Part shown: positions 884-20,054 of the stretch, in pieces
Layout of the letters: each line of letters begins with the position of its first letter
How positions within the stretch are numbered: position 1 is the stretch's first letter
Source of the DNA: Gammaproteobacteria bacterium
GTDB taxonomy: Bacteria > Pseudomonadota > Gammaproteobacteria > SZUA-229
DNA: 64,000 nucleotides
Direction of reading: 5' to 3'
Assembly: GCA_026195895.1 (NCBI GenBank)
Contig: JAPHRO010000026.1
Span: 1 to 64,000 of the forward strand
Translations under genes and position numbers: made by a program
The notes under the pieces: generated by a model
Database searches by the model: none
What the model was told of the DNA's origin: nothing
Seen by the model: the letters and a program-made list of their open reading frames with translations, nothing else

Positions 884-1483
884 TTGAAAAACAAACATTT
901 ACCCGCTGATGAGCGCCGCGCCGTTACCATCGAAGCTGTCGTCGATCTCGCGGCCAAACAAAATCCGAACGATATTACCACGGCGGCAATTGCCAAACAT
1001 ATGAGCCTGACCCAGGGCGCATTGTTTCGTCATTTCCCAAATAAAGAAGCCATCTGGCAGGCAGTGATGTCATGGGTTGCCGAACGTTTGCTGACACGGG
1101 TCGATAAAGCCGCTAAATCCGCTGCCACACCACTGGCAGCGCTGGAAGCGGTATTCATGACCCATATTGAATTTGTTTTTGCTCACCCTGGCGTGCCGCG
1201 CATGCTGTTTGGTGAATTACAGCGCGCTGAGAACACTGCCGCTAAACGTATGGCGCGTACACTGCTCCAGAAATACGCCACACGTCTGTCGGTTTTGATA
1301 GAACAGGGCAAAGTTGATGGCGAGATTGATCCTGCTGTGGATACATCTGCTGCGGCGACCCTGTTTATTGGCACCATCCAGGGCCTGGTGATGCAATCTC
1401 TACTGGTCGGAGAAACGACAAATATCGTTAACAAGGTAGCCGATGTATTTGCAATTTATCGCCGCGGCATTGAGCGTCATTGA
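884..1483 (+). CDS. TetR/AcrR family transcriptional regulator
   Basis: A 199-residue repressor, the usual length for TetR. The helix-turn-helix is ITTAAIAKHMSLTQGALFRHF at roughly residues 29-49, followed by the FPNKEAIW stretch common in the family and an all-helical ligand-binding C-terminus. I place the start at TTG 884, just after the palindrome. Upstream in-frame starts (803, and ATG 833 inside the palindrome) would translate the operator and add residues the family lacks. The stop overlaps the ATG of the membrane-fusion gene by one base. It probably represses its own operon through the upstream palindrome; the inducer is unknown. Confidence 0.88.
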   Translation: MKNKHLPADERRAVTIEAVVDLAAKQNPNDITTAAIAKHMSLTQGALFRHFPNKEAIWQAVMSWVAERLLTRVDKAAKSAATPLAALEAVFMTHIEFVFAHPGVPRMLFGELQRAENTAAKRMARTLLQKYATRLSVLIEQGKVDGEIDPAVDTSAAATLFIGTIQGLVMQSLLVGETTNIVNKVADVFAIYRRGIERH

Positions 1484-2673
1484 TGATTAAATTACCCCTG
1501 AACAAACCCGGCATTACCCTGCTGGCTATATTGCTGCCATTGCTACTGACTTTTGGCTACGTGGTCGCCAGATCTGGACCATTAGCACCGGTGCCGGTTA
1601 CCGTCATTCAGGCAGAAAAACAGGCTATTTCACCGGCGCTATTTGGCCTCGGCATCGTTGAGGCTCAGTACAGATACCGTATTGGCCCAACCATGACCGG
1701 CCATGTGCTGCATCTCGATAGTCATGTTGGTGACATGGTCACTGCCGGTCAGGTGCTGGGAAGCATCGACCCGGTGGACCTGAATAATAAAATAGCCTCC
1801 AGCAAGGCCGCTATCAAACGCACCAAAGCATCGGTGATGGCAGCAGAAGCCCAGGTTAATGACGCAGTTGCCCGTGAACGTTATGCACAAAGCCAGTCCC
1901 TGCGTTATCAGCAACTGGTTAAAACGGGCACCGTCAGCAACGAAGCCAACGACATAAAAATTCAGGAATACCAGGTGGCTAAAGCCAGCCTGGCCGCGGC
2001 CAGGGCAAACCTGAACGCCGCCCGCGAAGAGCTGGAAATACAGCATGCAACTTATGCGGGCCTGGTACAACAGCTTGACAATCTACGCCTGCTATCACCA
2101 GTGGATGGCCTGGTAGTTGGTCGTTATGTCGAGCCGGGCAGTACGGTAGTTGCGGGGCAGGCGGTACTGGAAGTCATTGATCCAGCCAGCATCTGGATCA
2201 ATGTGCGCTTCGATCAGTTACGTTCCAGGGGGCTGGCCAGCGGATTAACCGCCAGCATTGAGCTGCGATCCATTGCCGAACCGCTCACCGGCCGTGTGGC
2301 CAGAGTAGAACCGCTGGCCGATGCGGTTACCGAAGAGATTCTGGCAAAAATCGTATTCGACCAATTGCCGGAATCACTGCCGCCGATAGGTGAGCTGGCC
2401 GAGGTCACGGTTAATTTACCGCAGCTTGCGGCCATGCCTGTCGTACCCAATGCCAGCATCAAGCGTATCAATGGACAGACCGGTGTCTGGGTGCTGGAAG
2501 ACGCATCACTGCGCTATGCGCCAGTGGAAATCGGCATCGCCAATCTGGACGGCCAGGTACAGGTATTGAGCGGACTCAATCACAATGATCAGGTTGTTGT
2601 GTACAGTAAACAGGCACTGAGCTCAGATAGTCGTGTCAGCGTTGTTGATCAGTTGCTGGATGATGCGCAATGA
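1483..2673 (+). CDS. HlyD/MacA-type membrane fusion protein of an ABC exporter
   Basis: A periplasmic adaptor of 396 residues that would link the inner-membrane ABC pump to an outer-membrane channel or release substrate in the periplasm. It has an N-terminal membrane anchor (about residues 11-30), a lipoyl-like half around 70-95, a long Ala/Glu/Gln-rich coiled-coil hairpin (about 100-195), the second lipoyl half (LLSPVDGLVVGRYVEPGS) and beta-barrel domains to the end. ATG 1483 overlaps the tetR stop (TGATG), which indicates translational coupling; the TTG one codon earlier is less likely. The gene overlaps the next one by four bases (ATGA). The substrate cannot be told from sequence. Confidence 0.9.
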   Translation: MIKLPLNKPGITLLAILLPLLLTFGYVVARSGPLAPVPVTVIQAEKQAISPALFGLGIVEAQYRYRIGPTMTGHVLHLDSHVGDMVTAGQVLGSIDPVDLNNKIASSKAAIKRTKASVMAAEAQVNDAVARERYAQSQSLRYQQLVKTGTVSNEANDIKIQEYQVAKASLAAARANLNAAREELEIQHATYAGLVQQLDNLRLLSPVDGLVVGRYVEPGSTVVAGQAVLEVIDPASIWINVRFDQLRSRGLASGLTASIELRSIAEPLTGRVARVEPLADAVTEEILAKIVFDQLPESLPPIGELAEVTVNLPQLAAMPVVPNASIKRINGQTGVWVLEDASLRYAPVEIGIANLDGQVQVLSGLNHNDQVVVYSKQALSSDSRVSVVDQLLDDAQ

Positions 2674-19640: not shown

Positions 19641-19660
19641 TTGTAGGATTATCCCTACAA
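19641..19660 (+). promoter_or_regulatory. GacA-box-like palindrome upstream of the Csr-type RNA
   Basis: TTGTAGG (19641-19647), six bases, CCTACAA (19654-19660). The GacA/UvrY upstream activating sequence of rsmY/rsmZ/csrB genes has the form TGTAAG-N6-CTTACA; this matches in length, spacing and all but one symmetric pair. Its centre is about 88 bases upstream of the predicted RNA start. Confidence 0.7.
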
Positions 19661-19738
19661 GAGACTACTCATAATTCTGACATGAATTCACTACATCAAC
19701 TGATAGCCGTCATCACTGGACTTGACCATAATATATAC

Positions 19739-19937
19739 ATGGACACAAGGACTTGGCTGGACAGGACACAGGGATAGTACAGGAAGTAGCTGGAAAGGAT
19801 TCACAGGGAAACGGATTAAGGACTGCAGGACTCGAACAGGAAGTATACAGGAAATCAGGATATAGCTACATTGCCAAACCCAATCACCATAGGGCCAGGA
19901 CGCTCAAAGCCCCGATAAGGATTATCGGGGCTTTTTA
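19739..19937 (+). ncRNA. CsrB/RsmZ-family small RNA (CsrA/RsmA sponge)
   Basis: About 199 bases between pip and ttcA contain 17 GGA triplets (first at 19741, last in the terminator loop at 19919), eleven of them AGGA. They are spaced 5-15 bases apart from 19741 to 19860. Multiple GGA sites are the binding sites of CsrA/RsmA, and RNAs of this build titrate the protein. A -10-like CATAAT (19727-19732), a GacA-box-like palindrome and an intrinsic terminator frame the unit. No reading frame inside looks coded. The 5' end is inferred from the -10 position. I cannot assign it to csrB, csrC, rsmX, rsmY or rsmZ by name. Confidence 0.85.
19906..19937 (+). terminator. Intrinsic terminator of the Csr-type RNA
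   Basis: AAAGCCCCGATAA (19906-19918), loop GGA, TTATCGGGGCTTT, then T's to 19936. A 13-base GC-rich stem with a GGA in the loop is common in this RNA family. Confidence 0.93.
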
Positions 19938-20054
19938 TTGCCTGGGGAAAATTTTTACCCTGGCGCTGAGTCTCATCCAGTAGACGCCAGGCAGGCAAAA
20001 TTACCCGCTATTTTATTCTTGCAATCAATGACACAGTCTGTATCTTTGCTGGCC

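Follow-up and report, generated by a model that had tools for sequence, protein, structure and literature searches.

In the 64,000-nucleotide stretch of gammaproteobacterial DNA analysed here (the window), positions 19739-19937 of the forward strand most probably encode a non-coding RNA that sequesters CsrA and is controlled by GacA/UvrY; from the sequence, we give this reading a probability of about 0.88. The predicted transcript is approximately 199 nt long (its 5' end was placed from the -10 element) and is assigned to the CsrB/RsmZ kind by its predicted function, while by sequence it lies outside every Rfam Csr/Rsm family. In the proposed mechanism, a BarA/GacS-type kinase would activate GacA/UvrY by phosphorylation, the phosphorylated regulator would bind a palindrome upstream of the RNA and start transcription from a CATAAT promoter, and the transcript would stop at a terminator with a GGA loop. 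Its GGA sites would bind several CsrA dimers, and CsrA-bound mRNAs would in this way be released. The GGA excess, the conservation of the promoter layout and of the RNA structure, and the genes for CsrA, GacA and a BarA-like protein were read directly from the DNA; from these we infer that the RNA is transcribed, that GacA binds its box, that CsrA binds the RNA and that mRNAs are affected.

GGA content and predicted structure of the RNA

All features of the locus lie on the forward strand. A sequence-only reading of this DNA had claimed 17 GGA triplets in about 199 bases, and counting gave the same number, distributed across 19741-19921. The densest 200-base segments elsewhere in the window contain 8 (forward strand) and 10 (reverse strand) such triplets. 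Dinucleotide shuffling of region 19729-19940 (2000 shuffles) yielded 8.5 GGA (sd 1.8) and 0.8 CAGGA (sd 0.9) compared with the observed 17 and 7, respectively, and none of the shuffles came up to either observed count. No tandem repeat that could be the source of the GGA run was found in a repeat search.

Two long-range helices are predicted within the RNA: P1, formed by TTGGC (19753-19757) and GCCAA (19873-19877), and P2, formed by GTAGC (19786-19790) and GCTAC (19865-19869). In the alignment of relatives, compensatory changes preserve both helices, covariation extends to the terminator stem, and several GGA columns are retained. The paired cells amount to 94.5%, with two-sided changes in 8 of the 20 pairs, and neither value was reached in any of 500 shuffles, a control that ignores relatedness. 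When the structures were slid by 1-3 columns, only 33-50% of cells were paired, a comparison biased toward the structure, as this was derived from the same alignment.

The 3' end is formed by an intrinsic terminator (19906-19936), which consists, as had been claimed, of a stem with GGA in its loop (13 bp, 19906-19934) followed by a T run; a simple terminator scan missed it. The terminator is preceded by a hairpin with the last CsrA site, GGGC-CAGGAC-GCTC (19892-19905); this hairpin was drawn by eye from the sequence and the alignments, and the minimum free energy fold of the window pairs its GGGC otherwise. Just upstream of this hairpin lies the element AATCACC (19882-19888), which is predicted to be unpaired and hardly varies among members of the family that have otherwise diverged. 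Six of its bases are shared with a site close to the 16S rRNA 3' end, possibly by chance. In Escherichia coli CsrB, the decay site is an unstructured stretch that separates the last CsrA site from the terminator (PMC5027483), and by analogy one might guess that AATCACC is a comparable site, placed one hairpin further upstream. It is conceivable, if rather doubtful, that AATCACC is a dedicated site new to Csr RNAs, e.g. for regulated RNase E entry or as a base-pairing seed; if so, the family would couple CsrA titration to a second activity.

A search with a model of the 3' end revealed a second locus with the same 3' module in this genome (E-value of 6.7e-6), at G000:C28:52709-52826 on the forward strand (L097:1446-1563). 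This candidate RNA of approximately 118 nt contains the hairpins GGTAC-AGGAC-GTACC and AGTTT-AGGG-AAACT, the TTCAATCACC module (AATCACC is shared by both RNAs) and a terminator with a GGA loop. Of its four GGA triplets, at least two lie wholly inside predicted hairpin loops, and a CATACT element is located 61 bases past a degenerate TATCAG-N6-CTTACA box. This locus is likely to encode a second, shorter Csr RNA, for which a DNA search found no convincing homologue in relatives.

Upstream box, promoter and regulators

The palindrome TTGTAGG-ATTATC-CCTACAA (19641-19660) matches the TTGTAGG-N6-CCTACAA pattern without mismatches, in agreement with the earlier claim, while 0.12 occurrences at up to two mismatches are expected in the window. 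Across the whole genome the box is, at up to one mismatch, as frequent as a reversed control and, therefore, the box alone is unremarkable; the evidential weight lies in the fact that it accompanies the GGA cluster in relatives, where a similar box was found upstream of the cluster in 34 of the 36 family members examined. The published GacA/UvrY site is TGTAAG-N6-CTTACA (PMC4682653, PMC8523701). Another perfect palindrome, TGTAGG-N6-CCTACA, was observed before a small ORF at G000:C11:13114-13131 (L075:1501-1518), with no GGA cluster downstream of it; this may possibly be a further GacA target.

The CATAAT -10 element was located at 19727-19732, as claimed, and the 18-bp box starts 85 bases before it. 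A simple scan of the window returned no sigma-70 promoter here because the -35 consensus is absent. A -10 element resembling CATAAT or CATACT could be identified in 27 loci of the family, and in each of these one lies at a distance from the box start of either 62 bases (in 12 loci) or 84-86 bases (in 15 loci), two spacings that differ by about two helical turns. The box centre would then lie at about -65 in the short class and about -88 in the long class, which includes the window, on the assumption that transcription starts approximately 12 bases after the beginning of the -10 element. Many members of both classes share the conserved core-promoter element CTGATAG (19700-19706 in the window) about 20 bases before the -10 element. 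In the 84-86 class, a degenerate half-box (CTGACA at 19677-19682 in the window; CTTACA or CCTACA in relatives) occupies the position of the full box of the 62 class, and an additional half-site near the UvrY palindrome is also known from E. coli csrB (PMC4682653, PMC8523701). The two-turn difference would fit an activator obliged to face the polymerase.

The claim that the organism possesses a Gac/Rsm cascade was supported at the level of gene content. The genome encodes a single CsrA (117.5 bits against a cut-off of 73), a UvrY/SirA/GacA equivalog scoring above the NCBI cut-off (an assignment that rests on the NCBIfam model), whose gene is separated from uvrC by one gene, and a BarA/GacS-like kinase of 930 residues. 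The latter aligns with 911 of the 920 positions of BarA, i.e. over the full length, with 740 bits (396 for the next best protein), a score below the NCBI BarA cut-off of 890. A csrA match is absent in several order-level relatives, including some carriers of the RNA (e.g. G002, rated 100% complete), which likely reflects gaps in draft assemblies.

Conservation, neighbourhood and alternative explanations

In a DNA search of 58 genomes, the element was identified in nine genomes of the same family besides that of the window. The 3'-end model, comprising only the last 58 bases and thus no promoter, was searched against the order and 369 genomes of the class. In loci outside the training set, a TGTARG-N6-YYTACR box was found approximately 205-240 bases upstream of the match within the window's family, and at a somewhat shorter distance in other families, with a GGA cluster between box and match. 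The GGA excess over shuffles has a mean z of 2.7 across the 36 members and is weak in a few distant ones (L036, L038, L040, L134 and L135). Loci that combine the GGA cluster with the 3' module were identified in 11 of the family's 14 sampled genera and also in five other gammaproteobacterial families; most of them adjoin dtd/pip, and ttcA is often a neighbour as well. One named carrier is Thioalkalivibrio sulfidiphilus (L033). The conservation anticipated for a GGA-rich RNA was thus found.

The class-level search also produced matches that were rejected: 13 of the 22 genomes with a model match lack the box and the dtd/pip/ttcA context, and nearly all of these matches are bare terminators. One of these 13 non-member genomes (G323, from another family) has at L138 (approximately 1330-1570, reverse strand) a GGA hairpin, an AGGGA motif and a terminator with an AAGGA loop, without box or shared context, and this may be another Csr-type RNA. 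The relative G065 carries two RNAs (L163 and L164) that both have GGA clusters and a 3' module of the same type, which suggests a duplication.

Three other explanations of the locus were considered. The predicted 76-codon ORF with a TTG start does exist at 19753-19983, and its open frame could be taken for a small protein gene with GGA-rich codons. In 10 of 13 relatives, however, no frame is open across the transcript, the indels in the alignment are not multiples of three, the helices covary and the ORF reads through the terminator; this explanation is virtually inconceivable, and 19739-19937 is not a protein gene. The position of the RNA between pip/dtd and ttcA raises another possibility, namely that it is a 5' leader or attenuator in which the GGA sites let CsrA control read-through into ttcA. 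Both in the window and in several relatives this gene closely follows the RNA on the same strand, whereas the RNA is also kept in L106, L107, L109, L111, L122, L124, L127 and L128, where no TtcA-like gene was seen downstream on the same strand within approximately 1.5 kb, and in L117-L121 and L123, where the nearest TtcA match shares only 35-38% identity and lies on the opposite strand. Since ttcA is often not found downstream in relatives, while dtd and/or pip usually stay upstream, and the terminator combines a 13-bp stem with a T run, a ttcA leader is highly unlikely.

It is also improbable that the RNA binds CsrA and is controlled through a similar box by a LuxR-type regulator other than GacA/UvrY. 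Several further LuxR-type response regulators are encoded in the genome, and each half of the box has one departure from the textbook site. Against this, a GacA equivalog is encoded, the box agrees with 10 of the 12 specified positions of TGTAAG-N6-CTTACA, and the TGTAAG form occurs at the same place in relatives. A CsrA-sequestering RNA under GacA/UvrY control accordingly remains the preferred reading.

Relation to known Csr/Rsm RNAs

The Infernal search proposed in the sequence-only reading went against formal membership of a described family: no Rfam Csr/Rsm model reached its gathering score. CsrB (RF00018) gave 15.4 bits in the window compared with a threshold of 71, CsrC, RsmY, PrrB/RsmZ and RsmX gave no match there, and none of the models reached threshold in 14 related loci. 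Matches obtained at relaxed E-values were rejected as being at chance level (mostly the terminator hairpin, plus the weak CsrB match). The negative result limits formal sequence-family membership, not the functional reading, and the RNA is therefore treated as representing a sequence family that is not yet catalogued but belongs to a known kind. No reports on Csr RNAs in this group were found in the literature, and a machine-learning survey of such RNAs does not mention Thioalkalivibrio (PMC5568370). The RNA may have been predicted earlier, as the prediction of CsrA-regulating RNAs was the subject of a 2006 paper that preceded the survey.

If correct, the reading means that a complete BarA/UvrY-Csr cascade exists in a gammaproteobacterial group that has been little studied and is mostly uncultured, and whose relatives extend to Thioalkalivibrio. 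It also provides a concrete sequence family and a seed model that are absent from Rfam, and it offers two features open to testing, namely the two spacing classes of the activator site and the AATCACC element.

The Pseudomonas RNAs RsmX, RsmY and RsmZ are activated via a GacA box located not far upstream of the promoter, and they expose GGA in hairpin loops and single strands. The window RNA would resemble them in both respects and differs in its larger number of GGA triplets (17), its genomic neighbours, its 3' end and its lack of an Rfam match. With E. coli CsrB and CsrC it shares the many GGA/CAGGA sites and the intrinsic terminator and, with csrB, the upstream UvrY palindrome accompanied by an extra half-site (PMC4682653). 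Unlike CsrB and CsrC, it adjoins dtd/pip/ttcA, carries AATCACC and has no Rfam match; at approximately 200 nt it is also shorter than CsrB, whose Rfam model comprises 356 positions. The box is placed differently as well, with its centre at about -88 or -65 in the family, compared with about -183 in E. coli csrB (PMC4682653).
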